Of a stretch of 64,000 nt of DNA, positions 28,616 through 64,000 are shown in pieces. The translations under genes were made by a program, and so were the position numbers. This DNA is from Alitta virens. Taxonomy: Eukaryota; Annelida; Polychaeta; Phyllodocida; Nereididae. The notes under the pieces were generated by a model. It was not told the DNA's origin. It worked only from the letters and a program-made list of their open reading frames with translations, and did no database searches. Every line of letters begins with the position of its first letter. The stretch's first letter is position 1. The stretch lies in NCBI GenBank assembly GCA_932294295.1, contig OW028584.1, positions 23,281,638 to 23,345,637 of the forward strand, in the 5' to 3' direction.

Positions 28616-28680
28616 CTGAAATGTAAAGAAAGCAATGTGAGACTATTGAAGTGACCGCATAGGAGTTAATCTGTGATTTA

Positions 28681-31808: not shown

Positions 31809-32172
31809 CTTGTGCTGCTCTTGAAAATCCTGCACCTCCTCATTTTGAGGGTGGTAACACTGTGGGTGGTGACCTTGAGGTTAACACGTCGCTTATTATA
31901 TTACCACTCATTATACTCACTTCTCCAAATTGCTCAAGTCCATGTCATTTAGTACTGCTTCCTTGCATACATATTCAAGTGACTTTGAGTGTGTATTTAA
32001 CAAATTATATGATATGGTATCTGAATCATCATTACATTCTAGAGTAGCAGTGACTTTAAATTTTTACTTTTGCCACCAATGGGCTACACAACAACTTTTC
32101 CAAGTCCAATTTCACACATATCACAATTTCACACATTTCACAATTTCTCTAAAATAATATGAAAAAATATAT

Positions 32173-32294
32173 TGTCAGAAGTGGGATTTGAACCCACGCC
32201 CACATACGTGGACCAGAACACCCACAACACCTGTAAATTCAGGTAAGGTTCAACACCTTGAGTCTGGCGCCTTAGACCACTCGGCCATCCTGAC
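32173..32294 (-). tRNA. tRNA-Leu(CAA) copy 1, with intron
   Basis: First gene of the array and model for all others. The 122 bp hold an 84-nt mature tRNA and a 38-nt intron directly 3' of position 37 (plus offsets 47-84). Acceptor stem GTCAGGA pairs TTCTGAC with discriminator A. Anticodon stem CCAGA/TCTGG encloses CTCAAGT, so the anticodon is CAA (Leu, UUG codons). The long variable arm CCAC/GTGG and T stem GTGGG/CCCAC are intact; A box is TGGCCGAGTGG and B box GGTTCAAATCC. The intron has its own ACCTG/CAGGT hairpin and a TTGA able to pair with the anticodon region. CCA is not encoded. This copy differs from consensus by one base in the variable loop (CGTAT). It starts a 549-bp long unit. Confidence 0.95.
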
Positions 32295-32327
32295 CTGTGC
32301 TAGGAGCAATCCCTTTCTAATGGGATT

Positions 32328-32390
32328 CGAGAACTGCTCTGCCCTTGGAAGTCCTTGGGGTATATATTGACAAAACATTGTCTTGCCCTT
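32328..32390 (+). repeat. LINE-derived segment inside the array spacer (representative)
   Basis: The plus strand here reads EVLGVYIDKTLSC in one frame, closely matching EVLGVHIDNKLSW of the LINE fragment at 31553-31600. The same segment lies about 155-217 bp from the left end of every long unit. A shorter form lies at the equivalent place in every short unit. Confidence 0.75.
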
Positions 32391-32721
32391 GAAAGTCCTG
32401 CACCTCCTCATTTCGAGGGTGGTAACACTGGGTGGTGACCTTGAGGTTAACACATCACTTATTATAACACCACTGATTATACTCACTTCTCCAAATTGTT
32501 CAAGTTCATGTCATTTAGTACTGCTTCCTTGCATACATATTCAAGTGACTTTGAGTGTGTATTTAACAAATTATATGATATGGTATCTGAATCATCATTA
32601 CATTCTAGAGTAGCAGTGACTTTAAATTTTTACTTTTGCCACCAATGGGCTACACAACAACTTTTCCAAGTCCAATTTCACACATATCACAATTTCTCTA
32701 AAATAATATGAAAAAATATAT

Positions 32722-32843
32722 TGTCAGAAGTGGAATTTGAACCCACGCCCACATTCGTGGACCAGAACACCCACAACACCTGTAAATTCAGGTAAGGTTC
32801 AACACCTTGAGTCTGGCGCCTTAGACCACTCGGCCATCCTGAC
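32722..32843 (-). tRNA. tRNA-Leu(CAA) copy 2, B-box variant
   Basis: C61 to T in the B box (GGTTCAAATTC), leaving a G53-U61 pair; long unit following a long unit. Confidence 0.85.
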
Positions 32844-33276
32844 CTGTGCTAGGAGCAATCCCTTTCTAATGGGATTCGAGAACTGCTCTGCCCTTGGAAG
32901 TCCTTGGGGTATATATTGACAAAACATTGTCTTGCCCTTGAAAGTCCTGCACCTCCTCATTTCGAGGGTGGTAACACTGGGTGGTGACCTTGAGGTTAAC
33001 ACATCACTTATTATAACACCACTGATTATACTCACTTCTCCAAATTGTTCAAGTTCATGTCATTTAGTACTGCTTCCTTGCATACATATTCAAGTGACTT
33101 TGAGTGTGTATTTAACAAATTATATGATATGGTATCTGAATCATCATTACATTCTAGAGTAGCAGTGACTTTAAATTTTTACTTTTGCCACCAATGGGCT
33201 ACACAACAACTTTTCCAAGTCCAATTTCACACATATCACAATTTCACACATTTCACAATTTCTCTAAAATAATATG

Positions 33277-33282
33277 AAAAAA
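33277..33282 (-). terminator. Pol III terminator of tRNA copies (representative)
   Basis: Six Ts on the minus strand start 6 bases after the discriminator base. Copies that follow a 324-bp short unit have five Ts. Eight copies (34433, 46483, 47376, 51505, 52398, 53291, 54184, 55967) have only three at this place and next meet four Ts about 10 bases on. Confidence 0.7.
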
Positions 33283-33287
33283 TATAT

Positions 33288-33409
33288 TGTCAGAAGTGGG
33301 ATTTGAACCCACGCCCACATTCGTGGACCAGAACACCCACAACACCTGTAAATTCAGGTAAGGTTCAACACCTTGAGTCTGGCGCCTTAGACCACTCGGC
33401 CATCCTGAC
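33288..33409 (-). tRNA. tRNA-Leu(CAA) copy 3
   Basis: Consensus sequence; short unit, 324 bp. Confidence 0.95.
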
Positions 33410-33482
33410 CTGTGCTAGGAGCAATCACTTTCTAATAAGATTCGGAGAACTGTTCTGCCTCTTGAAGTCCTTGGGGTACATA

Positions 33483-33538
33483 TTGAACCCAGGGTCAACA
33501 CCCACAGTCTGAATCCATAGACCACTTACCATCCTCAC
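33483..33538 (-). pseudogene. tRNA-like relic inside the short unit (representative of 32)
   Basis: The minus strand reads GTGAGGATGGTAAGTGGTCT, then ATTCAGACT, a GGGTGTTGACCC stretch and GGGTTCAAT. It resembles the tRNA 5' half plus a B-box core. The anticodon loop and acceptor pairing are lost. It lies 195-250 bp from the left end of each short unit. Confidence 0.65.
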
Positions 33539-33611
33539 TTGTACTAAAAAAATTTCACACATATCACAATTTCACACATTTCACAATTTCTCTAAAATAA
33601 GAAAAATATAC

Positions 33612-33733
33612 TGTCAGAAGTGGGATTTGAACCCACGCCCACATTCGTGGACCAGAACACCCACAACACCTGTAAATTCAGGTAAGGTTCAACACCTTGA
33701 GTCTGGCGCCTTAGACCACTCGGCCATCCTGAC
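33612..33733 (-). tRNA. tRNA-Leu(CAA) copy 4
   Basis: Consensus sequence; long unit shortened to 494 bp by a 72-bp spacer deletion near 34040. Confidence 0.95.
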
Positions 33734-34105
33734 CTGTGCTAGGAGCAATCCCTTTCTAATGGGATTCGAGAACTGCTCTGCCCTTGGAAGTCCTTGGGGT
33801 ATATATTGACAAAACATTGTCTTGCCCTTGAAAGTCCTGCACCTCCTCATTTCGAGGGTGGTAACACTGGGTGGTGACCTTGAGGTTAACACATCACTTA
33901 TTATAACACCACTGATTATACTCACTTCTCCAAATTGTTCAAGTTCATGTCATTTAGTACTGCTTCCTTGCATACATATTCAAGTGACTTTGAGTGTGTA
34001 TTTAACAAATTATATGATATGGTATCTGAATCATCATTACAATTTCACACATATCACAATTTCACACATTTCACAATTTCTCTAAAATAATATGAAAAAA
34101 TATAT

Positions 34106-34227
34106 TGTCAGAAGTGGGATTTGAACCCACGCCCACATTCGTGGACCAGAACACCCACAACACCTGTAAATTCAGGTAAGGTTCAACACCTTGAGTCTGG
34201 CGCCTTAGACCACTCGGCCATCCTGAC
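34106..34227 (-). tRNA. tRNA-Leu(CAA) copy 5
   Basis: Consensus sequence; short unit, 327 bp. Confidence 0.95.
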
Positions 34228-34432
34228 CTGTGCTAGGAGCAATCACTTTCTAATAAGATTCGGAGAACTGCTCTGCCTCTTGAAGTCCTTGGAGTACATA
34301 TTGAACCCAGGGTCAACACCCACAGTCTGAATCAATAGACCACTTACCATCCTCACTTGTACTAAAAAAAATTCATACATATCACAATTTCACACATTTC
34401 ACAATTTCTCTAAAATAATATGAAATATATAT

Positions 34433-34554
34433 TGTCAGAAGTGGGATTTGAACCCACGCCCACATTCGTGGACCAGAACACCCACAACACCTGTAAATTC
34501 AGGTAAGGTTCAACACCTTGAGTCTGGAGCCTTAGACCACTCGGCCATCCTGAC
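34433..34554 (-). tRNA. tRNA-Leu(CAA) copy 6
   Basis: G26 to T; weak three-T terminator; long unit. Confidence 0.88.
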
Positions 34555-34998
34555 CTGTGCTAGGAGCAATCCCTTTCTAATGGGATTCGAGAACTGCTCA
34601 GCCCTTGGAAGTCCTTGGGGTATATATTGACAAAACATTGTCTTGCCCTTGAAAGTCCTGCACCTCCTCATTTCGAGGGTGGTAACACTGGGTGGTGACT
34701 TTGAGGTTAACACATCACTTATTATAACACCACTGATTATACTCACTTCTCCAAATTGTTCAAGTTCATGTCATTTAGTACTGCTTCCTTGCATACATAT
34801 TCAAGTGACTTTGAGTGTGTATTTAACAAATTATATGATATGGTATCTGAATCATCATTACATTCTAGAGTAGCAGTGACTTTAAATTTTTACTTTTGCC
34901 ACCAATGGGCTACACAACAACTTTTCCAAGTCCAATTTCACACATATCACAATTTCACACATTTCACAATTTCTCTAAAATAATATGAAAAAATATAT

Positions 34999-35120
34999 TG
35001 TCAGAAGTGGGATTTGAACCCACGCCCACATTCGTGGACCAGAACACCCACAACACCTGTAAATTCAGGTAAGGTTCAACACCTTGAGTCTGGCGCCTTA
35101 GACCACTCGGCCATCCTGAC
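34999..35120 (-). tRNA. tRNA-Leu(CAA) copy 7
   Basis: Consensus sequence; rare 328-bp short unit with AGGACCAATC after the gene. Confidence 0.95.
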
Positions 35121-35326
35121 CTGTGCTAGGACCAATCACTTTCTAATAAGATTCGGAGAACTGCTCTGCCTCTTGAAGTCCTTGGGGTACATATTGAACC
35201 CAGGGTCAACACCCACAGTCTGAATCCATAGACCACTTACCATCCTCACTTGTACTAAAAAATTTTCACACATATCACAATTTCACACATTTCACAATTT
35301 CTCTAAAATAATATGAAAAAATATAT

Positions 35327-35448
35327 TGTCAGAAGTGGGATTTGAACCCACGCCCACATTCGTGGACCAGAACACCCACAACACCTGTAAATTCAGGTAA
35401 GGTTCAACACCTTGAGTCTGGCGCCTTAGACCACTCGGCCATCCTGAC
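35327..35448 (-). tRNA. tRNA-Leu(CAA) copy 8
   Basis: Consensus sequence; long unit. Confidence 0.95.
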
Positions 35449-35892
35449 CTGTGCTAGGAGCAATCCCTTTCTAATGGGATTCGAGAACTGCTCTGCCCTT
35501 GGAAGTCCTTGGGGTATATATTGACAAAACATTGTCTTGCCCTTGAAAGTCCTGCACCTCCTCATTTCGAGGGTGGTAACACTGGGTGGTGACCTTGAGG
35601 TTAACACATCACTTATTATAACACCACTGATTATACTCACTTCTCCAAATTGTTCAAGTTCATGTCATTTAGTACTGCTTCCTTGCATACATATTCAAGT
35701 GACTTTGAGTGTGTATTTAACAAATTATATGATATGGTATCTGAATCATCATTACATTCTAGAGTAGCAGTGACTTTAAATTTTTACTTTTGCCACCAAT
35801 GGGCTACACAACAACTTTTCCAAGTCCAATTTCACACATATCACAATTTCACACATTTCACAATTTCTCTAAAATAATATGAAAAAATATAT

Positions 35893-36014
35893 TGTCAGAA
35901 GTGGGATTTGAACCCACGCCCACATTCGTGGACCAGAACACCCACAACACCTGTAAATTCAGGTAAGGTTCAACACCTTGAGTCTGGCGCCTTAGACCAC
36001 TCGGCCATCCTGAC
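35893..36014 (-). tRNA. tRNA-Leu(CAA) copy 9
   Basis: Consensus sequence; short unit, 324 bp. Confidence 0.95.
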
Positions 36015-36216
36015 CTGTGCTAGGAGCAATCACTTTCTAATAAGATTCGGAGAACTGTTCTGCCTCTTGAAGTCCTTGGGGTACATATTGAACCCAGGGT
36101 CAACACCCACAGTCTGAATCCATAGACCACTTACCATCCTCACTTGTACTAAAAAAATTTCACACATATCACAATTTCACACATTTCACAATTTCTCTAA
36201 AATAAGAAAAATATAC

Positions 36217-36338
36217 TGTCAGAAGTGGGATTTGAACCCACGCCCACATTCGTGGACCAGAACACCCACAACACCTGTAAATTCAGGTAAGGTTCAACAC
36301 CTTGAGTCTGGCACCTTAGACCACTCGGCCATCCTGAC
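36217..36338 (-). tRNA. tRNA-Leu(CAA) copy 10
   Basis: C25 to T turns the G10-C25 D-stem pair into G-U; 549-bp long unit. Confidence 0.9.
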
Positions 36339-36765
36339 CTGTGCTAGGAGCAATCCCTTTCTAATGGGATTCGAGAACTGCTCTGCCCTTGGAAGTCCTT
36401 GGGGTATATATTGACAAAACATTGTCTTGCCCTTGAAAGTCCTGCACCTCCTCATTTCGAGGGTGGTAACACTGGGTGGTGACCTTGAGGTTAACACATC
36501 ACTTATTATAACACCACTGATTATACTCACTTCTCCAAATTGTTCAAGTTCATGTCATTTAGTACTGCTTCCTTGCATACATATTCAAGTGACTTTGAGT
36601 GTGTATTTAACAAATTATATGATATGGTATCTGAATCATCATTACATTCTAGAGTAGCAGTGACTTTAAATTTTTACTTTTGCCACCAATGGGCTACACA
36701 ACAACTTTTCCAAGTCCAATTTCACACATATCACAATTTCTCTAAAATAATATGAAAAAATATAT

Positions 36766-36887
36766 TGTCAGAAGTGGAATTTGAACCCACGCCCACATTC
36801 GTGGACCAGAACACCCACAACACCTGTAAATTCAGGTAAGGTTCAACACCTTGAGTCTGGCGCCTTAGACCACTCGGCCATCCTGAC
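36766..36887 (-). tRNA. tRNA-Leu(CAA) copy 11, B-box variant
   Basis: C61 to T; second long unit of a long-long pair. Confidence 0.85.
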
Positions 36888-37331
36888 CTGTGCTAGGAGC
36901 AATCCCTTTCTAATGGGATTCGAGAACTGCTCTGCCCTTGGAAGTCCTTGGGGTATATATTGACAAAACATTGTCTTGCCCTTGAAAGTCCTGCACCTCC
37001 TCATTTCGAGGGTGGTAACACTGGGTGGTGACCTTGAGGTTAACACATCACTTATTATAACACCACTGATTATACTCACTTCTCCAAATTGTTCAAGTTC
37101 ATGTCATTTAGTACTGCTTCCTTGCATACATATTCAAGTGACTTTGAGTGTGTATTTAACAAATTATATGATATGGTATCTGAATCATCATTACATTCTA
37201 GAGTAGCAGTGACTTTAAATTTTTACTTTTGCCACCAATGGGCTACACAACAACTTTTCCAAGTCCAATTTCACACATATCACAATTTCACACACTTCAC
37301 AATTTCTCTAAAATAATATGAAAAAATATAT

Positions 37332-37453
37332 TGTCAGAAGTGGGATTTGAACCCACGCCCACATTCGTGGACCAGAACACCCACAACACCTGTAAATTCA
37401 GGTAAGGTTCAACACCTTGAGTCTGGCGCCTTAGACCACTCGGCCATCCTGAC
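37332..37453 (-). tRNA. tRNA-Leu(CAA) copy 12
   Basis: Consensus sequence; short unit whose flank reads CTAATATGATTC. Confidence 0.95.
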
Positions 37454-37655
37454 CTGTGCTAGGAGCAATCACTTTCTAATATGATTCGGAGAACTGTTCT
37501 GCCTCTTGAAGTCCTTGGGGTACATATTGAACCCAGGGTCAACACCCACAGTCTGAATCCATAGACCACTTACCATCCTCACTTGTACTAAAAAAAATTC
37601 ACACATATCACAATTTCACACATTTCACAATTTCTCTAAAATAAGAAAAATATAC

Positions 37656-37777
37656 TGTCAGAAGTGGGATTTGAACCCACGCCCACATTCGTGGACCAGA
37701 ACACCCACAACACCTGTAAATTCAGGTAAGGTTCAACACCTTGAGTCTGGCGCCTTAGACCACTCGGCCATCCTGAC
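37656..37777 (-). tRNA. tRNA-Leu(CAA) copy 13
   Basis: Consensus sequence; long unit. Confidence 0.95.
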
Positions 37778-38221
37778 CTGTGCTAGGAGCAATCCCTTTC
37801 TAATGGGATTCGAGAACTGCTCTGCCCTTGGAAGTCCTTGGGGTATATATTGACAAAACATTGTCTTGCCCTTGAAAGTCCTGCACCTCCTCATTTCGAG
37901 GGTGGTAACACTGGGTGGTGACCTTGAGGTTAACACATCACTTATTATAACACCACTGATTATACTCACTTCTCCAAATTGTTCAAGTTCATGTCATTTA
38001 GTACTGCTTCCTTGCATACATATTCAAGTGACTTTGAGTGTGTATTTAACAAATTATATGATATGGTATCTGAATCATCATTACATTCTAGAGTAGCAGT
38101 GACTTTAAATTTTTACTTTTGCCACCAATGGGCTACACAACAACTTTTCCAAGTCCAATTTCACACATATCACAATTTCACACATTTCACAATTTCTCTA
38201 AAATAATATGAAAAAATATAT

Positions 38222-38343
38222 TGTCAGAAGTGGGATTTGAACCCACGCCCACATTCGTGGACCAGAACACCCACAACACCTGTAAATTCAGGTAAGGTTC
38301 AACACCTTGAGTCTGGCGCCTTAGACCACTCGGCCATCCTGAC
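38222..38343 (-). tRNA. tRNA-Leu(CAA) copy 14
   Basis: Consensus sequence; short unit with ATTCAGAG flank. Confidence 0.95.
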
Positions 38344-38545
38344 CTGTGCTAGGAGCAATCACTTTCTAATAAGATTCAGAGAACTGTTCTGCCTCTTGAA
38401 GTCCTTGGGGTACATATTGAACCCAGGGTCAACACCCACAGTCTGAATCCATAGACCACTTACCATCCTCACTTGTACTAAAAAAATTTCACACATATCA
38501 CAATTTCACACATTTCACAATTTCTCTAAAATAAGAAAAATATAC

Positions 38546-38667
38546 TGTCAGAAGTGGGATTTGAACCCACGCCCACATTCGTGGACCAGAACACCCACAA
38601 CACCTGTAAATTCAGGTAAGGTTCAACACCTTGAGTCTGGCGCCTTAGACCACTCGGCCATCCTGAC
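38546..38667 (-). tRNA. tRNA-Leu(CAA) copy 15
   Basis: Consensus sequence; long unit with spacer changes CTTTCATAC and GTGAATTTG. Confidence 0.95.
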
Positions 38668-39111
38668 CTGTGCTAGGAGCAATCCCTTTCTAATGGGATT
38701 CGAGAACTGCTCTGCCCTTGGAAGTCCTTGGGGTATATATTGACAAAACATTGTCTTGCCCTTGAAAGTCCTGCACCTCCTCATTTCGAGGGTGGTAACA
38801 CTGGGTGGTGACCTTGAGGTTAACACATCACTTATTATAACACCACTGATTATACTCACTTCTCCAAATTGTTCAAGTTCATGTCATTTAGTACTGCTTC
38901 CTTTCATACATATTCAAGTGAATTTGAGTGTGTATTTAACAAATTATATGATATGGTATCTGAATCATCATTACATTCTAGAGTAGCAGTGACTTTAAAT
39001 TTTTACTTTTGCCACCAATGGGCTACACAACAACTTTTCCAAGTCCAATTTCACACATATCACAATTTCACACATTTCACAATTTCTCTAAAATAATATG
39101 AAAAAATATAT

Positions 39112-39233
39112 TGTCAGAAGTGGAATTTGAACCCACGCCCACATTCGTGGACCAGAACACCCACAACACCTGTAAATTCAGGTAAGGTTCAACACCTTGA
39201 GTCTGGCGCCTTAGACCACTCGGCCATCCTGAC
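39112..39233 (-). tRNA. tRNA-Leu(CAA) copy 16, B-box variant
   Basis: C61 to T; second of a long-long pair. Confidence 0.85.
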
Positions 39234-39677
39234 CTGTGCTAGGAGCAATCCCTTTCTAATGGGATTCGAGAACTGCTCTGCCCTTGGAAGTCCTTGGGGT
39301 ATATATTGACAAAACATTGTCTTGCCCTTGAAAGTCCTGCACCTCCTCATTTCGAGGGTGGTAACACTGGGTGGTGACCTTGAGGTTAACACATCACTTA
39401 TTATAACACCACTGATTATACTCACTTCTCCAAATTGTTCAAGTTCATGTCATTTAGTACTGCTTCCTTGCATACATATTCAAGTGACTTTGAGTATGTA
39501 TTTAACAAATTATATGATATGGTATCTGAATCATCATTACATTCTAGAGTAGCAGTGACTTTAAATTTTTACTTTTGCCACCAATGGGCTACACAACAAC
39601 TTTTCCAAGTCCAATTTCACACATATCACAATTTCACACACTTCACAATTTCTCTAAAATAATATGAAAAAATATAT

Positions 39678-39799
39678 TGTCAGAAGTGGGATTTGAACCC
39701 ACGCCCACATTCGTGGACCAGAACACCCACAACACCTGTAAATTCAGGTAAGGTTCAACACCTTGAGTCTGGCGCCTTAGACCACTCGGCCATCCTGAC
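39678..39799 (-). tRNA. tRNA-Leu(CAA) copy 17
   Basis: Consensus sequence; short unit, 324 bp. Confidence 0.95.
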
Positions 39800-40001
39800 C
39801 TGTGCTAGGAGCAATCACTTTCTAATAAGATTCGGAGAACTGTTCTGCCTCTTGAAGTCCTTGGGGTACATATTGAACCCAGGGTCAACACCCACAGTCT
39901 GAATCCATAGACCACTTACCATCCTCACTTGTACTAAAAAAATTTCACACATATCACAATTTCACACATTTCACAATTTCTCTAAAATAAGAAAAATATA
40001 C

Positions 40002-40123
40002 TGTCAGAAGTGGGATTTGAACCCACGCCCACATTCGTGGACCAGAACACCCACAACACCTGTAAATTCAGGTAAGGTTCAACACCTTGAGTCTGGCGCC
40101 TTAGACCACTCGGCCATCCTGAC
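40002..40123 (-). tRNA. tRNA-Leu(CAA) copy 18
   Basis: Consensus sequence; long unit. Confidence 0.95.
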
Positions 40124-40567
40124 CTGTGCTAGGAGCAATCCCTTTCTAATGGGATTCGAGAACTGCTCTGCCCTTGGAAGTCCTTGGGGTATATATTGAC
40201 AAAACATTGTCTTGCCCTTGAAAGTCCTGCACCTCCTCATTTCGAGGGTGGTAACACTGGGTGGTGACCTTGAGGTTAACACATCACTTATTATAACACC
40301 ACTGATTATACTCACTTCTCCAAATTGTTCAAGTTCATGTCATTTAGTACTACTTCCTTGCATACATATTCAAGTGACTTTGAGTGTGTATTTAACAAAT
40401 TATATGATATGGTATCTGAATCATCATTACATTCTAGAGTAGCAGTGACTTTAAATTTTTACTTTTGCCACCAATGGGCTACACAACAACTTTTCCAAGT
40501 CCAATTTCACACATATCACAATTTCACACATTTCACAATTTCTCTAAAATAATATGAAAAAATATAT

Positions 40568-40689
40568 TGTCAGAAGTGGGATTTGAACCCACGCCCACAT
40601 TCGTGGACCAGAACACCCACAACACCTGTAAATTCAGGTAAGGTTCAACACCTTGAGTCTGGCGCCTTAGACCACTAGGCCATCCTGAC
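40568..40689 (-). tRNA. tRNA-Leu(CAA) copy 19, A-box variant
   Basis: G13 to T inside the A box (TGGCCTAGTGG); the only A-box change seen in the array; short unit. Confidence 0.85.
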
Positions 40690-40894
40690 CTGTGCTAGGA
40701 GCAATCACTTTCTAATAAGATTCGGAGAACTGCTCTGCCTCTTGAAGTCCTTGGGGTACATATTGAACCCAGGGTCAACACCCACAGTCTGAATCCATAG
40801 ACCACTTACCATCCTCACTTGTACTAAAAAAATTTCACACATATCACAATTTCACACATTTCACAATTTCTCTAAAATAATATGAAAAATATAT

Positions 40895-41016
40895 TGTCAG
40901 AAGTGGGATTTGAACCCACGCCCACATTCGTGGACCAGAACACCCACAACACCTGTAAATTCAGGTAAGGTTCAACACCTTGAGTCTGGCGCCTTAGACC
41001 ACTCGGCCATCCTGAC
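40895..41016 (-). tRNA. tRNA-Leu(CAA) copy 20
   Basis: Consensus sequence; long unit. Confidence 0.95.
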
Positions 41017-41460
41017 CTGTGCTAGGAGCAATCCCTTTCTAATGGGATTCGAGAACTGCTCTGCCCTTGGAAGTCCTTGGGGTATATATTGACAAAACAT
41101 TGTCTTGCCCTTGAAAGTCCTGCACCTCCTCATTTCGAGGGTGGTAACACTGGGTGGTGACCTTGAGGTTAACACATCACTTATTATAACACCACTGATT
41201 ATGCTCACTTCTCCAAATTGTTCAAGTTCATGTCATTTAGTACTGCTTCCTTGCATACATATTCAAGTGACTTTGAGTGTGTATTTAACAAATTATATGA
41301 TATGGTATCTGAATCATCATTACATTCTAGAGTAGCAGTGACTTTAAATTTTTACTTTTGCCACCAATGGGCTACACAACAACTTTTCCAAGTCCAATTT
41401 CACACATATCACAATTTCACACATTTCACAATTTCTCTAAAATAATATGAAAAAATATAT

Positions 41461-41582
41461 TGTCAGAAGTGGAATTTGAACCCACGCCCACATTCGTGGA
41501 CCAGAACACCCACAACACCTGTAAATTCAGGTAAGGTTCAACACCTTGAGTCTGGCGCCTTAGACCACTCGGCCATCCTGAC
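41461..41582 (-). tRNA. tRNA-Leu(CAA) copy 21, B-box variant
   Basis: C61 to T; second of a long-long pair. Confidence 0.85.
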
Positions 41583-42026
41583 CTGTGCTAGGAGCAATCC
41601 CTTTCTAATGGGATTCGAGAACTGCTCTGCCCTTGGAAGTCCTTGGGGTATATATTGACAAAACATTGTCTTGCCCTTGAAAGTCCTGCACCTCCTCATT
41701 TCGAGGGTGGTAACACTGGGTGGTGACCTTGAGGTTAACACATCACTTATTATAACACCACTGATTATACTCACTTCTCCAAATTGTTCAAGTTCATGTC
41801 ATTTAGTACTGCTTCCTTGCATACATATTCAAGTGACTTTGAGTGTGTATTTAACAAATTATATGATATGGTATCTGAATCATCATTACATTCTAGAGTA
41901 GCAGTGACTTTAAATTTTTACTTTTGCCACCAATGGGCTACACAACAACTTTTCCAAGTCCAATTTCACACATATCACAATTTCACACACTTCACAATTT
42001 CTCTAAAATAATATGAAAAAATATAT

Positions 42027-42148
42027 TGTCAGAAGTGGGATTTGAACCCACGCCCACATTCGTGGACCAGAACACCCACAACACCTGTAAATTCAGGTAA
42101 GGTTCAACACCTTGAGTCTGGCGCCTTAGACCACTCGGCCATCCTGAC
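42027..42148 (-). tRNA. tRNA-Leu(CAA) copy 22
   Basis: Consensus sequence; short unit, 327 bp. Confidence 0.95.
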
Positions 42149-42353
42149 CTGTGCTAGGAGCAATCACTTTCTAATAAGATTCGGAGAACTGTTCTGCCTC
42201 TTGAAGTCCTTGGGGTACATATTGAACCCAGGGTCAACACCCACAGTCTGAATCCATAGACCACTTACCATCCTCACTTGTACTAAAAAAATTTCACACA
42301 TATCACAATTTCACACATTTCACAATTTCTCTAAAATAATATGAAAAATATAT

Positions 42354-53412: not shown

Positions 53413-53856
53413 CTGTGCTAGGAGCAATCCCTTTCTAATGGGATTCGAGAACTGCTCTGCCCTTGGAAGTCCTGGGGGTATATATTGACAAAACATTGTC
53501 TTGCCCTTGAAAGTCCTGCACCTCCTCATTTCGAGGGTGGTAACACTGGGTGGTGACCTTGAGGTTAACACATCACTTATTATAACACCACTGATTATAC
53601 TCACTTCTCCAAATTGTTCAAGTTCATGTCATTTAGTACTGCTTCCTTGCATACATATTCAAGTGACTTTGAGTGTGTATTTAACAAATTATATGATATG
53701 GTATCTGAATCATCATTACATTCTAGAGTAGCAGTGACTTTAAATTTTTACTTTTGCCACCAATGGGCTACACAACAACTTTTCCAAGTCCAATTTCACA
53801 CATATCACAATTTCACACATTTCACAATTTCTCTAAAATAATATGAAAAAATATAT

Positions 53857-53978
53857 TGTCAGAAGTGGGATTTGAACCCACGCCCACATTCGTGGACCAG
53901 AACACCCACAACACCTGTAAATTCAGGTAAGGTTCAACACCTTGAGTCTGGCGCCTTAGACCACTCGGCCATCCTGAC
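53857..53978 (-). tRNA. tRNA-Leu(CAA) copy 48
   Basis: Consensus sequence; short unit. Confidence 0.95.
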
Positions 53979-54183
53979 CTGTGCTAGGAGCAATCACTTT
54001 CTAATAAGATTCGGAGAACTGCTCTGCCTCTTGAAGTCCTTGGAGTACAGATTGAACCCAGGGTCAACACCCACAGTCTGAATCCATAGACCACTTACCA
54101 TCCTCACTTGTACTAAAAAAATTTCATACATATCACAATTTCACACATTTCACAATTTCTCTAAAATAATATGAAATATATAT

Positions 54184-54305
54184 TGTCAGAAGTTGGATTT
54201 GAACCCACGCCCACATTTGTGGACCAGAACACCCACAACACCTGTAAATTCAGGTAAGGTTCAACACCTTGAGTCTGGAGCCTTAGACCACTCGGCCATC
54301 CTGAC
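54184..54305 (-). tRNA. tRNA-Leu(CAA) copy 49, decayed lineage
   Basis: C63-A and G26-T as in copies 34 and 45, plus a variable-loop change; weak terminator. Confidence 0.82.
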
Positions 54306-54749
54306 CTGTGCTAGGAGCAATCCCTTTCTAATGGGATTCGAGAACTGCTCTGCCCTTGGAAGTCCTTGGGGTATATATTGACAAAACACTGTCTTGCCCT
54401 TGAAAGTCCTGCACCTCCTCATTTCGAGGGTGGTAACACTGGGTGGTGACTTTGAGGTTAACACATCACTTATTATAACACCACTGATTATACTCACTTC
54501 TCCAAATTGTTCAAGTTCATGTCATTTAGTACTGCTTCCTTGCATACATATTCAAGTGACTTTGAGTGTGTATTTAACAAATTATATGATATGGTATCTG
54601 AATCATCATTACATTCTAGAGTAGCAGTGACTTTAAATTTTTACTTTTGCCACCAATGGGCTACACAACAACTTTTCCAAGTCCAATTTCACACATATCA
54701 CAATTTCACACATTTCACAATTTCTCTAAAATAATATGAAAAAATATAT

Positions 54750-54871
54750 TGTCAGAAGTGGGATTTGAACCCACGCCCACATTCGTGGACCAGAACACCC
54801 ACAACACCTGTAAATTCAGGTAAGGTTCAACACCTTGAGTCTGGCGCCTTAGACCACTCGGCCATCCTGAC
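54750..54871 (-). tRNA. tRNA-Leu(CAA) copy 50
   Basis: Consensus sequence; short unit, 324 bp. Confidence 0.95.
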
Positions 54872-55073
54872 CTGTGCTAGGAGCAATCACTTTCTAATAA
54901 GATTCGGAGAACTGTTCTGCCTCTTGAAGTCCTTGGGGTACATATTGAACCCAGGGTCAACACCCACAGTCTGAATCCATAGACCACTTACCATCCTCAC
55001 TTGTACTAAAAAAATTTCACACATATCACAATTTCACACATTTCACAATTTCTCTAAAATAAGAAAAATATAC

Positions 55074-55195
55074 TGTCAGAAGTGGGATTTGAACCCACGC
55101 CCACATTCGTGGACCAGAACACCCACAACACCTGTAAATTCAGGTAAGGTTCAACACCTTGAGTCTGGCGCCTTAGACCACTCGGCCATCCTGAC
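55074..55195 (-). tRNA. tRNA-Leu(CAA) copy 51
   Basis: Consensus sequence; long unit. Confidence 0.95.
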
Positions 55196-55639
55196 CTGTG
55201 CTAGGAGCAATCCCTTTCTAATGGGATTCGAGAACTGCTCTGCCCTTGGAAGTCCTTGGGGTATATATTGACAAAACATTGTCTTGCCCTTGAAAGTCCT
55301 GCACCTCCTCATTTCGAGGGTGGTAACACTGGGTGGTGACCTTGAGGTTAACACATCACTTATTATAACACCACTGATTATACTCACTTCTCCAAATTGT
55401 TCAAGTTCATGTCATTTAGTACTGCTTCCTTGCATACATATTCAAGTGACTTTGAGTGTGTATTTAACAAATTATATGATATGGTATCTGAATCATCATT
55501 ACATTCTAGAGTAGCAGTGACTTTAAATTTTTACTTTTGCCACCAATGGGCTACACAACAACTTTTCCAAGTCCAATTTCACACATATCACAATTTCACA
55601 CATTTCACAATTTCTCTAAAATAATATGAAAAAATATAT

Positions 55640-55761
55640 TGTCAGAAGTGGGATTTGAACCCACGCCCACATTCGTGGACCAGAACACCCACAACACCTG
55701 TAAATTCAGGTAAGGTTCAACACCTTGAGTCTGGCGCCTTAGACCACTCGGCCATCCTGAC
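55640..55761 (-). tRNA. tRNA-Leu(CAA) copy 52
   Basis: Consensus gene; the 5' flank reads GTGCAAGG instead of GTGCTAGG; short unit. Confidence 0.95.
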
Positions 55762-55966
55762 CTGTGCAAGGAGCAATCACTTTCTAATAAGATTCGGAGA
55801 ACTGCTCTGCCTCTTGAAGTCCTTGGAGTACATATTGAACCCAGGGTCAACACCCACAGTCTGAATCCATAGACCACTTACCATCCTCACTTGTACTAAA
55901 AAAATTTAATACATATCACAATTTCACACATTTCACAATTTCTCTAAAATAATATGAAATATATAT

Positions 55967-56088
55967 TGTCAGAAGTGGGATTTGAACCCACGCCCACATT
56001 CGTGGACCAGAACACCCACAACACCTGTAAATTCAGGTAAGGTTCAACACCTTGAGTCTGGAGCCTTAGACCACTCGGCCATCCTGAC
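55967..56088 (-). tRNA. tRNA-Leu(CAA) copy 53
   Basis: G26 to T and weak terminator, T stem intact; long unit. Confidence 0.88.
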
Positions 56089-56532
56089 CTGTGCTAGGAG
56101 CAATCCCTTTCTAATGGGATTCGAGAACTGCTCTGCCCTTGGAAGTCCTTGGGGTATATATTGACAAAACATTGTCTTGCCCTTGAAAGTCCTGCACCTC
56201 CTCATTTCGAGGGTGGTAACACTGGGTGGTGACCTTGAGGTTAACACATCACTTATTATAACACCACTGATTATGCTCACTTCTCCAAATTGTTCAAGTT
56301 CATGTCATTTAGTACTGCTTCCTTGCATACATATTCAAGTGACTTTGAGTGTGTATTTAACAAATTATATGATATGGTATCTGAATCATCATTACATTCT
56401 AGAGTAGCAGTGACTTTAAATTTTTACTTTTGCCACCAATGGGCTACACAACAACTTTTCCAAGTCCAATTTCACACATATCACAATTTCACACATTTCA
56501 CAATTTCTCTAAAATAATATGAAAAAATATAT

Positions 56533-56654
56533 TGTCAGAAGTGGGATTTGAACCCACGCCCACATTCGTGGACCAGAACACCCACAACACCTGTAAATTC
56601 AGGTAAGGTTCAACACCTTGAGTCTGGCGCCTTAGACCACTCGGCCATCCTGAC
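56533..56654 (-). tRNA. tRNA-Leu(CAA) copy 54
   Basis: Consensus sequence; short unit with CTAATATGATTC flank as in copy 12. Confidence 0.95.
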
Positions 56655-56856
56655 CTGTGCTAGGAGCAATCACTTTCTAATATGATTCGGAGAACTGTTC
56701 TGCCTCTTGAAGTCCTTGGGGTACATATTGAACCCAGGGTCAACACCCACAGTCTGAATCCATAGACCACTTACCATCCTCACTTGTACTAAAAAAATTT
56801 CACACATATCACAATTTCACACATTTCACAATTTCTCTAAAATAAGAAAAATATAC

Positions 56857-56978
56857 TGTCAGAAGTGGGATTTGAACCCACGCCCACATTCGTGGACCAG
56901 AACACCCACAACACCTGTAAATTCAGGTAAGGTTCAACACCTTGAGTCTGGCGCCTTAGACCACTCGGCCATCCTGAC
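56857..56978 (-). tRNA. tRNA-Leu(CAA) copy 55
   Basis: Consensus sequence; long unit. Confidence 0.95.
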
Positions 56979-57422
56979 CTGTGCTAGGAGCAATCCCTTT
57001 CTAATGGGATTCGAGAACTGCTCTGCCCTTGGAAGTCCTTGGGGTATATATTGACAAAACATTGTCTTGCCCTTGAAAGTCCTGCACCTCCTCATTTCGA
57101 GGGTGGTAACACTGGGTGGTGACCTTGAGGTTAACACATCACTTATTATAACACCACTGATTATACTCACTTCTCCAAATTGTTCAAGTTCATGTCATTT
57201 AGTACTGCTTCCTTGCATACATATTCAAGTGACTTTGAGTGTGTATTTAACAAATTATATGATATGGTATCTGAATCATCATTACATTCTAGAGTAGCAG
57301 TGACTTTAAATTTTTACTTTTGCCACCAATGGGCTACACAACAACTTTTCCAAGTCCAATTTCACACATATCACAATTTCACACATTTCACAATTTCTCT
57401 AAAATAATATGAAAAAATATAT

Positions 57423-57544
57423 TGTCAGAAGTGGAATTTGAACCCACGCCCACATTCGTGGACCAGAACACCCACAACACCTGTAAATTCAGGTAAGGTT
57501 CAACACCTTGAGTCTGGCGCCTTAGACCACTCGGCCATCCTGAC
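57423..57544 (-). tRNA. tRNA-Leu(CAA) copy 56, B-box variant
   Basis: C61 to T; second of a long-long pair, spacer with GTGACTTTGAGG. Confidence 0.85.
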
Positions 57545-57988
57545 CTGTGCTAGGAGCAATCCCTTTCTAATGGGATTCGAGAACTGCTCTGCCCTAGGAA
57601 GTCCTTGGGGTATATATTGACAAAACATTGTCTTGCCCTTGAAAGTCCTGCACCTCCTCATTTCGAGGGTGGTAACACTGGGTGGTGACTTTGAGGTTAA
57701 CACATCACTTATTATAACACCACTGATTATACTCACTTCTCCAAATTGTTCAAGTTCATGTCATTTAGTACTGCTTCCTTGCATACATATTCAAGTGACT
57801 TTGAGTGTGTATTTAACAAATTATATGATATGGTATCTGAATCATCATTACATTCTAGAGTAGCAGTGACTTTAAATTTTTACTTTTGCCACCAATGGGC
57901 TACACAACAACTTTTCCAAGTCCAATTTCACACATATCACAATTTCACACATTTCACAATTTCTCTAAAATAATATGAAAAAATATAT

Positions 57989-58110
57989 TGTCAGAAGTGG
58001 GATTTGAACCCACGCCCACATTCGTGGACCAGAACACCCACAACACCTGTAAATTCAGGTAAGGTTCAACACCTTGAGTCTGGCGCCTTAGACCACTCGG
58101 CCATCCTGAC
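57989..58110 (-). tRNA. tRNA-Leu(CAA) copy 57
   Basis: Consensus sequence; 328-bp short unit with AGGACCAATC, counterpart of copy 7. Confidence 0.95.
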
Positions 58111-58316
58111 CTGTGCTAGGACCAATCACTTTCTAATAAGATTCGGAGAACTGCTCTGCCTCTTGAAGTCCTTGGGGTACATATTGAACCCAGGGTCAAC
58201 ACCCACAGTCTGAATCCATAGACCACTTACCATCCTCACTTGTACTAAAAAATTTTCACACATATCACAATTTCACACATTTCACAATTTCTCTAAAATA
58301 ATATGAAAAAATATAT

Positions 58317-58438
58317 TGTCAGAAGTGGGATTTGAACCCACGCCCACATTCGTGGACCAGAACACCCACAACACCTGTAAATTCAGGTAAGGTTCAACAC
58401 CTTGAGTCTGGCGCCTTAGACCACTCGGCCATCCTGAC
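58317..58438 (-). tRNA. tRNA-Leu(CAA) copy 58
   Basis: Consensus sequence; long unit. Confidence 0.95.
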
Positions 58439-58882
58439 CTGTGCTAGGAGCAATCCCTTTCTAATGGGATTCGAGAACTGCTCTGCCCTTGGAAGTCCTT
58501 GGGGTATATATTGACAAAACATTGTCTTGCCCTTGAAAGTCCTGCACCTCCTCATTTCGAGGGTGGTAACACTGGGTGGTGACCTTGAGGTTAACACATC
58601 ACTTATTATAACACCACTGATTATACTCACTTCTCCAAATTGTTCAAGTTCATGTCATTTAGTACTGCTTCCTTGCATACATATTCAAGTGACTTTGAGT
58701 GTGTATTTAACAAATTATATGATATGGTATCTGAATCATCATTACATTCTAGAGTAGCAGTGACTTTAAATTTTTACTTTTGCCACCAATGGGCTACACA
58801 ACAACTTTTCCAAGTCCAATTTCACACATATCACAATTTCACACACTTCACAATTTCTCTAAAATAATATGAAAAAATATAT

Positions 58883-59004
58883 TGTCAGAAGTGGGATTTG
58901 AACCCACGCCCACATTCATGGACCAGAACACCCACAACACCTGTAAATTCAGGTAAGGTTCAACACCTTGAGTCTGGCGCCTTAGACCACTCGGCCATCC
59001 TGAC
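58883..59004 (-). tRNA. tRNA-Leu(CAA) copy 59
   Basis: One C to T in the variable stem leaves a wobble pair; short unit. Confidence 0.9.
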
Positions 59005-59206
59005 CTGTGCTAGGAGCAATCACTTTCTAATAAGATTCGGAGAACTGTTCTGCCTCTTGAAGTCCTTGGGGTACATATTGAACCCAGGGTCAACACCCAC
59101 AGTCTGAATCCATAGACCACTTACCATCCTCACTTGTACTAAAAAAATTTCACACATATCACAATTTCACACATTTCACAATTTCTCTAAAATAAGAAAA
59201 ATATAC

Positions 59207-59328
59207 TGTCAGAAGTGGGATTTGAACCCACGCCCACATTCGTGGACCAGAACACCCACAACACCTGTAAATTCAGGTAAGGTTCAACACCTTGAGTCTG
59301 GCGCCTTAGACCACTCGGCCATCCTGAC
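59207..59328 (-). tRNA. tRNA-Leu(CAA) copy 60
   Basis: Consensus sequence; 549-bp long unit, counterpart of copy 10. Confidence 0.95.
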
Positions 59329-59755
59329 CTGTGCTAGGAGCAATCCCTTTCTAATGGGATTCGAGAACTGCTCTGCCCTTGGAAGTCCTTGGGGTATATA
59401 TTGACAAAACATTGTCTTGCCCTTGAAAGTCCTGCACCTCCTCATTTCGAGGGTGGTAACACTGGGTGGTGACCTTGAGGTTAACACATCACTTATTATA
59501 ACACCACTGATTATACTCACTTCTCCAAATTGTTCAAGTTCATGTCATTTAGTACTGCTTCCTTGCATACATATTCAAGTGACTTTGAGTGTGTATTTAA
59601 CAAATTATATGATATGGTATCTGAATCATCATTACATTCTAGAGTAGCAGTGACTTTAAATTTTTACTTTTGCCACCAATGGGCTACACAACAACTTTTC
59701 CAAGTCCAATTTCACACATATCACAATTTCTCTAAAATAATATGAAAAAATATAT

Positions 59756-59877
59756 TGTCAGAAGTGGAATTTGAACCCACGCCCACATTCGTGGACCAGA
59801 ACACCCACAACACCTGTAAATTCAGGTAAGGTTCAACACCTTGAGTCTGGCGCCTTAGACCACTCGGCCATCCTGAC
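59756..59877 (-). tRNA. tRNA-Leu(CAA) copy 61, B-box variant
   Basis: C61 to T; second of a long-long pair. Confidence 0.85.
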
Positions 59878-60321
59878 CTGTGCTAGGAGCAATCCCTTTC
59901 TAATGGGATTCGAGAACTGCTCTGCCCTTGGAAGTCCTTGGGGTATATATTGACAAAACATTGTCTTGCCCTTGAAAGTCCTGCACCTCCTCATTTCGAG
60001 GGTGGTAACACTGGGTGGTGACCTTGAGGTTAACACATCACTTATTATAACACCACTGATTATACTCACTTCTCCAAATTGTTCAAGTTCATGTCATTTA
60101 GTACTGCTTCCTTGCATACATATTCAAGTGACTTTGAGTGTGTATTTAACAAATTATATGATATGGTATCTGAATCATCATTACATTCTAGAGTAGCAGT
60201 GACTTTAAATTTTTACTTTTGCCACCAATGGGCTACACAACAACTTTTCCAAGTCCAATTTCACACATATCACAATTTCACACACTTCACAATTTCTCTA
60301 AAATAATATGAAAAAATATAT

Positions 60322-60443
60322 TGTCAGAAGTGGGATTTGAACCCACGCCCACATTCGTGGACCAGAACACCCACAACACCTGTAAATTCAGGTAAGGTTC
60401 AACACCTTGAGTCTGGCGCCTTAGACCACTCGGCCATCCTGAC
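60322..60443 (-). tRNA. tRNA-Leu(CAA) copy 62
   Basis: Consensus sequence; short unit with CTAATATGATTC flank. Confidence 0.95.
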
Positions 60444-60648
60444 CTGTGCTAGGAGCAATCACTTTCTAATATGATTCGGAGAACTGTTCTGCCTCTTGAA
60501 GTCCTTGGGGTACATATTGAACCCAGGGTCAACACCCACAGTCTGAATCCATAGACCACTTACCATCCTCACTTGTACTAAAACAATTTCACACATATCA
60601 CAATTTCACACATTTCACAATTTCTCTAAAATAATATGAAAAATATAT

Positions 60649-60770
60649 TGTCAGAAGTGGGATTTGAACCCACGCCCACATTCGTGGACCAGAACACCCA
60701 CAACACCTGTAAATTCAGGTAAGGTTCAACACCTTGAGTCTGGCGCCTTAGACCACTCGGCCATCCTGAC
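60649..60770 (-). tRNA. tRNA-Leu(CAA) copy 63
   Basis: Consensus sequence; long unit with ACAATGTCTTG spacer change shared with copies 65 and 67. Confidence 0.95.
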
Positions 60771-61214
60771 CTGTGCTAGGAGCAATCCCTTTCTAATGGG
60801 ATTCGAGAACTGCTCTGCCCTTGGAAGTCCTTGGGGTATATATTGACAAAACAATGTCTTGCCCTTGAAAGTCCTGCACCTCCTCATTTCGAGGGTGGTA
60901 ACACTGGGTGGTGACCTTGAGGTTAACACATCACTTATTATAACACCACTGATTATACTCACTTCTCCAAATTGTTCAAGTTCATGTCATTTAGTACTGC
61001 TTCCTTGCATACATATTCAAGTGACTTTGAGTGTGTATTTAACAAATTATATGATATGGTATCTGAATCATCATTACATTCTAGAGTAGCAGTGACTTTA
61101 AATTTTTACTTTTGCCACCAATGGGCTACACAACAACTTTTCCAAGTCCAATTTCACACATATCACAATTTCACACATTTCACAATTTCTCTAAAATAAT
61201 ATGAAAAAATATAT

Positions 61215-61336
61215 TGTCAGAAGTGGGATTTGAACCCACGCCCACATTTGTGGACCAGAACACCCACAACACCTGTAAATTCAGGTAAGGTTCAACACCT
61301 TGAGTCTGGCGCCTTAGACCACTCGGCCATCCTGAC
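61215..61336 (-). tRNA. tRNA-Leu(CAA) copy 64
   Basis: One variable-loop change (CATTTGTGG on the plus strand); short unit. Confidence 0.93.
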
Positions 61337-61541
61337 CTGTGCTAGGAGCAATCACTTTCTAATAAGATTCGGAGAACTGCTCTGCCTCTTGAAGTCCTTG
61401 GGGTACATATTGAACCCAGGGTCAACACCCACAGTCTGAATCCATAGACCACTTACCATCCTCACTTGTACTAAAACAATTTCACACATATCACAATTTC
61501 ACACATTTCACAATTTCTCTAAAATAATATGAAAAATATAT

Positions 61542-61663
61542 TGTCAGAAGTGGGATTTGAACCCACGCCCACATTCGTGGACCAGAACACCCACAACACC
61601 TGTAAATTCAGGTAAGGTTCAACACCTTGAGTCTGGCGCCTTAGACCACTCGGCCATCCTGAC
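61542..61663 (-). tRNA. tRNA-Leu(CAA) copy 65
   Basis: Consensus sequence; long unit. Confidence 0.95.
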
Positions 61664-62107
61664 CTGTGCTAGGAGCAATCCCTTTCTAATGGGATTCGAG
61701 AACTGCTCTGCCCTTGGAAGTCCTTGGGGTATATATTGACAAAACAATGTCTTGCCCTTGAAAGTCCTGCACCTCCTCATTTCGAGGGTGGTAACACTGG
61801 GTGGTGACCTTGAGGTTAACACATCACTTATTATAACACCACTGATTATACTCACTTCTCCAAATTGTTCAAGTTCATGTCATTTAGTACTGCTTCCTTG
61901 CATACATATTCAAGTGACTTTGAGTGTGTATTTAACAAATTATATGATATGGTATCTGAATCATCATTACATTCTAGAGTAGCAGTGACTTTAAATTTTT
62001 ACTTTTGCCACCAATGGGCTACACAACAACTTTTCCAAGTCCAATTTCACACATATCACAATTTCACACATTTCACAATTTCTCTAAAATAATATGAAAA
62101 AATATAT

Positions 62108-62229
62108 TGTCAGAAGTGGGATTTGAACCCACGCCCACATTCGTGGACCAGAACACCCACAACACCTGTAAATTCAGGTAAGGTTCAACACCTTGAGTCT
62201 GGCGCCTTAGACCACTCGGCCATCCTGAC
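62108..62229 (-). tRNA. tRNA-Leu(CAA) copy 66
   Basis: Consensus sequence; short unit, 327 bp. Confidence 0.95.
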
Positions 62230-62434
62230 CTGTGCTAGGAGCAATCACTTTCTAATAAGATTCGGAGAACTGTTCTGCCTCTTGAAGTCCTTGGGGTACA
62301 TATTGAACCCAGGGTCAACACCCACAGTCTGAATCCATAGACCACTTACCATCCTCACTTGTACTAAAACAATTTCACACATATCACAATTTCACACATT
62401 TCACAATTTCTCTAAAATAATATGAAAAATATAT

Positions 62435-62556
62435 TGTCAGAAGTGGGATTTGAACCCACGCCCACATTCATGGACCAGAACACCCACAACACCTGTAAAT
62501 TCAGGTAAGGTTCAACACCTTGAGTCTGGCGCCTTAGACCACTCGGCCATCCTGAC
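62435..62556 (-). tRNA. tRNA-Leu(CAA) copy 67
   Basis: Variable-stem C to T as in copy 59; last long unit in view. Confidence 0.9.
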
Positions 62557-63000
62557 CTGTGCTAGGAGCAATCCCTTTCTAATGGGATTCGAGAACTGCT
62601 CTGCCCTTGGAAGTCCTTGGGGTATATATTGACAAAACAATGTCTTGCCCTTGAAAGTCCTGCACCTCCTCATTTCGAGGGTGGTAACACTGGGTGGTGA
62701 CCTTGAGGTTAACACATCACTTATTATAACACCACTGATTATACTCACTTCTCCAAATTGTTCAAGTTCATGTCATTTAGTACTGCTTCCTTGCATACAT
62801 ATTCAAGTGACTTTGAGTGTGTATTTAACAAATTATATGATATGGTATCTGAATCATCATTACATTCTAGAGTAGCAGTGACTTTAAATTTTTACTTTTG
62901 CCACCAATGGGCTACACAACAACTTTTCCAAGTCCAATTTCACACATATCACAATTTCACACATTTCACAATTTCTCTAAAATAATATGAAAAAATATAT

Positions 63001-63122
63001 TGTCAGAAGTGGGATTTGAACCCACGCCCACATTCGTGGACCAGAACACCCACAACACCTGTAAATTCAGGTAAGGTTCAACACCTTGAGTCTGGCGCCT
63101 TAGACCACTCGGCCATCCTGAC
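63001..63122 (-). tRNA. tRNA-Leu(CAA) copy 68
   Basis: Consensus sequence; first of three short units in a row. Confidence 0.95.
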
Positions 63123-63328
63123 CTGTGCTAGGAGCAATCACTTTCTAATAAGATTCGGAGAACTGTTCTGCCTCTTGAAGTCCTTGGGGTACATATTGAA
63201 CCCAGGGTCAACACCCACAGTCTGAATCCATAGACCACTTACCATCCTCACTTGTACTAAAACAATTTCACACATATCACAATTTCACACATTTCACAAT
63301 TTCTCTAAAATAATATGAAAAAATATAT

Positions 63329-63450
63329 TGTCAGAAGTGGGATTTGAACCCACGCCCACATTCGTGGACCAGAACACCCACAACACCTGTAAATTCAGGT
63401 AAGGTTCAACACCTTGAGTCTGGCGCCTTAGACCACTCGGCCATCCTGAC
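63329..63450 (-). tRNA. tRNA-Leu(CAA) copy 69
   Basis: Consensus sequence; short unit following a short unit. Confidence 0.95.
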
Positions 63451-63656
63451 CTGTGCTAGGAGCAATCACTTTCTAATAAGATTCGGAGAACTGCTCTGCC
63501 TCTTGAAGTCCTTGGGGTACATATTGAACCCAGGGTCAACACCCACAGTCTGAATCCATAGACCACTTACCATCCTCACTTGTACTAAAAAAATTTCATA
63601 CATATCACAATTTCACACATTTCACAATTTCTCTAAAATAATATGAAAAAATATAT

Positions 63657-63778
63657 TGTCAGAAGTGGGATTTGAACCCACGCCCACATTCGTGGACCAG
63701 AACACCCACAACACCTGTAAATTCAGGTAAGGTTCAACACCTTGAGTCTGGCGCCTTAGACCACTCGGCCATCCTGAC
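63657..63778 (-). tRNA. tRNA-Leu(CAA) copy 70
   Basis: Consensus sequence; last complete gene. Confidence 0.95.
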
Positions 63779-63980
63779 CTGTGCTAGGAGCAATCACTTT
63801 CTAATAAGATTCGGAGAACTGTTCTGCCTCTTGAAGTCCTTGGGGTACATATTGAACCCAGGGTCAACACCCACAGTCTGAATCCATAGACCACTTACCA
63901 TCCTCACTTGTACTAAAAAAATTTCACACATATCACAATTTCACACATTTCACAATTTCTCTAAAATAAGAAAAATATAC

Positions 63981-64000
63981 TGTCAGAAGTGGGATTTGAA
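63981..64000 (-). tRNA. tRNA-Leu(CAA) copy 71, cut by the window edge
   Basis: Only the 3' 20 bases (acceptor and half of the T arm) are in view; the five-T terminator lies to its left. Confidence 0.85.

Follow-up and report, generated by a model that had tools for sequence, protein, structure and literature searches.

Tandem arrays of transfer RNA (tRNA) genes are already known. The unit of the Xenopus oocyte-type arrays contains several different tRNA genes, and the tRNASer/tRNATyr (SYY) cluster of Arabidopsis comprises 27 repeats. tRNA gene clusters are described in many eukaryotes (PMC2888827), and homogeneous tandem repeats are called uncommon outside Entamoeba by the authors who described the human 1q23.3 tRNA variable-number tandem repeat (PMC4041453). 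According to a commentary, oocyte-specific arrayed tRNA genes of the frog are marked by 5-formylcytosine (5fC) and activated at zygotic genome activation (ZGA) (PMC11500080). Here we report a tandem array of tRNA-Leu(CAA) genes on chromosome 12 of the annelid Alitta virens, the marine king ragworm, detected in a 64,000-nucleotide (nt) stretch (GenBank assembly GCA_932294295.1, contig OW028584.1, positions 23,281,638 to 23,345,637; hereafter referred to as the window). Judged by their sequences, its members are real and mostly intact genes, and what is new is an animal array of one intron-bearing tRNA in over 150 copies. We found no report of an annelid tRNA array in the literature searched, which was covered by title and start of abstract, with most subscription journals outside the coverage.

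The array shares with each described system the tandem arrangement of tRNA genes and differs from each in its unit. Like the SYY cluster, in which the Tyr genes are intron-bearing, it is a tandem tRNA repeat, whereas the SYY cluster, described as methylated, silent in most tissues and active in root cap cells (PMC12308677), belongs to a plant and has a three-gene unit and far fewer copies. Entamoeba likewise has head-to-tail units and several array types per genome, but almost all of its tRNA genes are reported to sit in arrays whose units combine up to 5 tRNAs with short repeats (PMC2652664); in A. virens, copies outside the arrays exist for all four tRNA patterns that had matches. The human repeat resembles the array in its ~98% identity and its changes in repeat number, and differs in its 7.3-kb GC-rich unit, its 9–43 units per allele and its association with CTCF (PMC4041453), as against units of 0.3–0.6 kb and a spacer of 37% GC on chromosome 12.

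Copy number and extent of the array

The main feature of the window is as follows.

32173..63778, minus strand: tandem array of 70 complete tRNA-Leu(CAA) genes (Rfam, BLAST), continuing to 155 copies past the window

The Rfam model RF00005 gave 70 tRNA matches above the gathering score, all on the minus strand, with scores of 39.5–50.4 bits (70/70 over the cut-off of 29). BLAST with one copy as the query returned the same 70 full copies, plus a copy interrupted by the end of the window and 32 truncated 5′ halves. Both searches thus bear out the original prediction, made from the letters alone, of seventy complete tRNA-Leu genes lying head to tail. That prediction also had the array running out of the window, as indeed it does: in the extended region, which consists of the window and a further 200 kb downstream on chromosome 12 (coordinates continued from the window), 155 copies lie head-to-tail on one strand from 32173 to 103011 (70,839 bp), in a stretch without N. 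A 156th copy with long-type flanks (115907–116028) lies beyond an insertion of ~12.4 kb with domains of a long interspersed nuclear element (LINE).

The copies are highly uniform. In the window, 45 of the 70 are identical to the consensus across the 122-nt pre-tRNA and 46 across the mature sequence. One of the 155 array copies has a 14-bp deletion; among the remaining 154, which form the comparable set, the consensus is kept by the entire pre-tRNA in 98, by the mature part in 99 and by the intron in 151.

Gene structure and RNA polymerase III signals

A representative copy has the following parts.

33288..33409, minus strand: representative copy, with the array's consensus sequence throughout its 122-nt pre-tRNA (BLAST, alignment with dispersed genes)
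33372..33409, minus strand: exon 1, 38 nt, with the A box inside, ending after the anticodon CAA and G37
33334..33371, minus strand: intron, 38 nt, with hairpins common to the introns of the dispersed genes
33288..33333, minus strand: exon 2, 46 nt, with a long variable arm, the B box GGTTCAAATCC and discriminator A
33277..33282, minus strand: T6 run resembling an RNA polymerase III (Pol III) terminator, 5 nt past the gene

A 38-nt intron lies between positions 37 and 38 in 70/70 window copies, so the expectation of an intron in every copy holds. By fixed position, the anticodon is CAA in 155 of the 156 sequences, the exception being the copy with the 14-bp deletion. ARAGORN without its intron option called none of the copies, and with this option it called 64 and labelled them Thr(CGT). 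We regard this label as an artefact, because the program sets the intron ~2 nt off, whereas the canonical 37/38 position gives CAA. Five dispersed genes support this assignment, since they share the exons (one differs at one base) and carry different introns at the same place; alignment with them also supports the intron position, the long variable arm and A73. The predicted identity, tRNA-Leu(CAA), is therefore retained. A consensus fold of the six intron sequences has two hairpins, with both-sided changes in only 1 of 39 pairs, which is thin evidence.

The signals for Pol III are likewise kept in most copies, as foreseen. The A-box stretch is unchanged in 137 of the 156 sequences and the B-box stretch in 137 of the 155 array copies, and a run of at least four T starts within 18 nt in 155/155 array copies. 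Box conservation would also suit a chromatin element, with clustered TFIIIC sites serving as an anchor or boundary and the tRNA as a by-product, the role proposed for the human 1q23.3 repeat, a tRNA repeat described at a topological boundary (PMC4041453). However, eight copies share a change of C61 in the B box and six share a change of G52 without having been removed, and such an element needs neither the intron nor the terminators; we give this explanation only a slight chance.

Repeat units and array edges

The array is built from long and short units, which have the following parts inside the array and at its left edge.

33410..33483, minus strand: 5′ flank, related in both unit types
33491..33538, minus strand: truncated, diverged tRNA-Leu 5′ half in the short spacer, 75.5% identity over 49 columns (BLAST)
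31810..32172, minus strand: left-edge spacer of the long type, the outermost one, aligning with the long consensus at 96% identity (363 columns)
31762..31809, minus strand: truncated 5′ half of tRNA-Leu, also at the left edge, 82% (49 columns)
31547..31602, plus strand: LINE-like fragment reading LEVLGVHIDNKLSW, with a 56-bp core that forms part of the 5′ flank in the long unit (called by eye, no Pfam match)

Most long units measure 566 bp, with a few of 549, 552 or 494 bp, and short units measure 324–328 bp, so that the spacing is not uniform; the two types largely alternate, with 64 long–short, 63 short–long, 21 long–long and 3 short–short neighbour pairs and two further pairs that involve the odd unit of 494 bp. 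Both types have the tRNA in common, together with a 3′ flank of ~65 bp and a 5′ flank of ~75 bp, the latter at 88% identity. The short spacer contains the truncated, diverged 5′ half (31 in the array part of the window by BLAST), and the long spacer ~300 bp of other sequence. The LINE-like fragment, called by eye and without a Pfam match, occurs at both array edges, and a short piece of it is left in the units. The left boundary had been placed at 31826; homologous sequence is present there, but it starts at 31810.

A block of about 27 units (~12 kb) is present twice, units 85–112 occurring again as 112–139, with 26 of 28 exact and two with one difference. Either unequal exchange took place recently or the assembly contains a false duplication. 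In the latter case copy number would be inflated and the array would be nearer 128 copies, and the near identity of the two blocks is what such an error would leave. The assembly is, however, a PacBio Sequel II assembly with an estimated quality value of 62.6 as reported (PMC10352625), and no N lies inside the array; we judge this inflation quite improbable, and the array itself stands either way.

Dispersed genes and origin of the array

Patterns were counted genome-wide over 671,116,069 bases in 23 contigs. With up to 3 mismatches allowed, the exon-1 pattern is matched 160 times (157 reverse, 3 forward), and 155 of these matches, all reverse, fall in the array region. The five others are dispersed genes, two on chromosome 5, one on chromosome 11 and two on chromosome 12; in four the exons match the array consensus exactly and in the fifth at all but one base, whereas their introns and flanks are all different. 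These shared exons and distinct introns and flanks indicate that the source of the array was another Leu(CAA) gene, one with an intron of its own. A separate set of dispersed genes, which characterizes a developmental array of the Xenopus type, is thus present.

The 5′ flank is private to the array. With up to 2 mismatches allowed, a 28-nt stretch from this flank is matched 155 times in reverse and 0 times forward, both across the genome and within the array region, so that all matches lie in this array. We therefore rule out a short interspersed nuclear element (SINE) or other mobile unit, as the unit's 5′ flank is found nowhere outside the array, and this confinement argues for an amplified real gene. 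A weak hairpin and CTAG lie at the end of every unit. Capture by a Helitron was considered and dropped, since this hairpin, compared by eye, is not conserved from one unit type to the other and the unit does not occur dispersed.

CpG decay and variation among copies

Variation in the exons is concentrated at CpG sites. Among the 154 comparable copies, 8/8 possible exon CpG transitions were seen, versus 6/39 at non-CpG G/C sites (p = 1e-5) and 2/37 at A/T sites. Six of the eight exon CpG sites are variable in both unit types (p = 4e-4 and 3e-5 versus non-CpG exon sites). The ratio of observed to expected CpG is 0.14 in the spacer, versus 0.53 and 0.48 in the flanks.

Outside CpGs, the exons vary as the spacer does. 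In long units (n = 84), variable sites number 10 of 76 in the non-CpG exon and 41 of 440 in the spacer (p = 0.30), and in short units (n = 68) 5 of 76 and 27 of 203 (p = 0.14); this test covered 152 of the 154 units, one 494-bp and one 552-bp unit being left out. Purifying selection copy by copy was thus not found across these 152 units. Together, the CpG decay and the spacer-like variation at the other exon sites suggest germline methylation of the array and an absence of copy-by-copy selection on its genes. Transcription-associated mutation as a source of the exon changes was not separable from CpG decay here.

Much of this would also be expected of a neutral or selfish satellite that had captured an intact tRNA gene, been amplified and homogenised by unequal exchange alone, and left its tRNAs largely silent. 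The CpG decay, the twice-present block, the LINE-like and truncated tRNA pieces inside the unit and the existence of five dispersed genes all fit such a satellite, as does the lack of exon constraint outside CpGs, although young homogenised arrays give this test little power. Against it, the outlying copy at the right edge keeps 84/84 exon bases while its flanks differ at 21/515 (p = 0.06, one copy), and the further arrays described below bear on it as well. We treat the satellite as a serious rival, possible if on the doubtful side.

Other tRNA arrays in the genome

Besides the array on chromosome 12, the A. virens genome contains at least three more tRNA gene arrays, which are the following.

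chr8:35295313-35349734: Arg tRNA array, which may extend past the fetched stretch
chr7:37488163-37537478: initiator-Met array, with Leu(UAG) genes (Leu(TAG)) on the other strand
chr11:30.6-31.6 Mb: Asp-Glu-Tyr array with a 1301-bp unit (3-kb sample), Tyr intron-bearing

Of the 63 scored matches from a search for the tRNA family, 61 belong to the array on chromosome 8. ARAGORN called 189 genes in 60 kb there (134 Arg(TCG), 54 Arg(ACG) and 1 Gln(TTG)), the two Arg types being set apart by one anticodon base, and ~75 further full-length relics are diverged, at 80–90% identity. The Arg pattern has 304 genome matches, 194 within this 60 kb and 110 elsewhere. The initiator-Met pattern has 378, and among the 100 matches listed, 92 lie on chromosome 7 at 37.488–37.537 Mb, where a 4-kb sample contains 8 initiator-Met genes and 3 Leu(TAG) genes on the opposite strand. 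Of the 67 genome matches to the Asp pattern, 53 are on chromosome 11 across ~0.9 Mb, with initiator-Met matches among them. A Lys(CTT) pattern based on vertebrates had 0 genome matches and is uninformative. The five patterns with results (Leu, Arg, Lys, initiator-Met and Asp) are few and not random, Leu and Arg having been picked because their arrays had already been seen; the two independent patterns with matches, initiator-Met and Asp, both have an array.

The large single-isoacceptor array had been considered unusual. Its identity holds, but it is no solitary oddity, given at least three other tRNA arrays in the genome. At least four arrays of different tRNAs in one genome, one of them an initiator, are also a lot for chance capture by a satellite. 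Compared with the Xenopus arrays, which likewise consist of tandem tRNA units in an animal, the chromosome 11 unit is the closest in form, having several tRNAs, whereas the unit on chromosome 12 has one intron-bearing tRNA plus a truncated half. In the frog, the link is with cytosine modification and Pol III at ZGA, as described in the commentary (PMC11500080); on chromosome 12, a corresponding link would be indirect, through CpG decay.

Possible role of the array

The explanation we favour, and which we hold to be evenly poised between right and wrong, is that the array belongs to a set of homogenised tRNA arrays providing a stage-specific bulk supply like that of the frog. The sequence shows local amplification, into long and short units, of a gene that lay next to a LINE-like fragment and a truncated copy of a tRNA, and it contains a near-identical block twice, the trace expected of unequal crossing-over. 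Germline methylation would let the CpGs decay while repeat turnover kept most copies intact. The array might then be a bulk source of tRNA-Leu(CAA) at a stage of heavy translation, such as oogenesis or ZGA, with the five dispersed genes as the presumed housekeeping set. Initiator tRNA is described as limiting the rate at which cells grow (PMC11500080), and its amplification therefore fits a supply role. A more specific version, in which a developmental set of tRNA arrays is treated like ribosomal DNA, germline-methylated and activated by Pol III in oocytes or at ZGA under an oxidised-cytosine control shared by frogs and annelids, seems to us rather unlikely.

Several observations weigh against the bulk-supply reading. 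Non-CpG exon sites vary as the spacer does, with no sign of selection on individual copies. The low CpG of the long spacer is matched by 4.2% of 444-bp background windows. Shared variants lie 18.4 units apart versus a shuffle mean of 34.6, yet the minimum in 500 shuffles was 15.8. In the chromosome 8 Arg array the CpG effect is weak (variable CpG sites 5/12 versus 6/27), which counts against a uniform rule. Finally, methylation can mean silence: zebrafish chromosome 4, with 60% of the predicted tRNA genes, is described as almost entirely heterochromatin (PMC11574265). The precedents point both ways, with reported activation in the frog (PMC11500080), an Arabidopsis cluster active in root cap cells though silent in most other tissues (PMC12308677) and zebrafish heterochromatin, and the array's features suggest two readings of its role, bulk supply at some life stage or a selfish repeat with a captured real gene.

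A. virens thus offers a chromosome-level animal genome in which several tRNA genes have been amplified in separate arrays beside dispersed copies, and the wider point is the presence of several such arrays within one annelid genome. Being unlike any of the five dispersed introns, the array intron is a natural barcode separating array from dispersed transcripts, so that the function of giant tRNA arrays can be tested directly in this relative of Platynereis, a genus with a reportedly highly methylated genome (PMC8330077).

Neighbouring sequence

At the right side, a Helitron (Pif1 helicase, Helitron_like_N) adjoins the last array copy (L014:2173-7409). The LINE-bearing insertion of ~12.4 kb near the right end contains a 118-residue endonuclease-like frame four times, exactly 1818 bp apart (L013:3215, 5033, 6851 and 8669; Pfam match below the curated cut-off). 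Beside the array on the left, at window positions 31028-31310 and 30656-30763, GCAGACC occurs eight times and GCGGACC four times in less than 700 bp, with 7 and 0 more, respectively, elsewhere on that strand in the 200 kb examined. Window positions 1-2700 contain a long terminal repeat retrotransposon with broken frames and RNase H and integrase domains. Positions 24426-24713 and 28323-28739 contain a piece of the motile-cilium gene for outer dynein arm docking complex subunit 3, as befits an animal, and, on the opposite strand, a UPF0449 match just under the Pfam cut-off.

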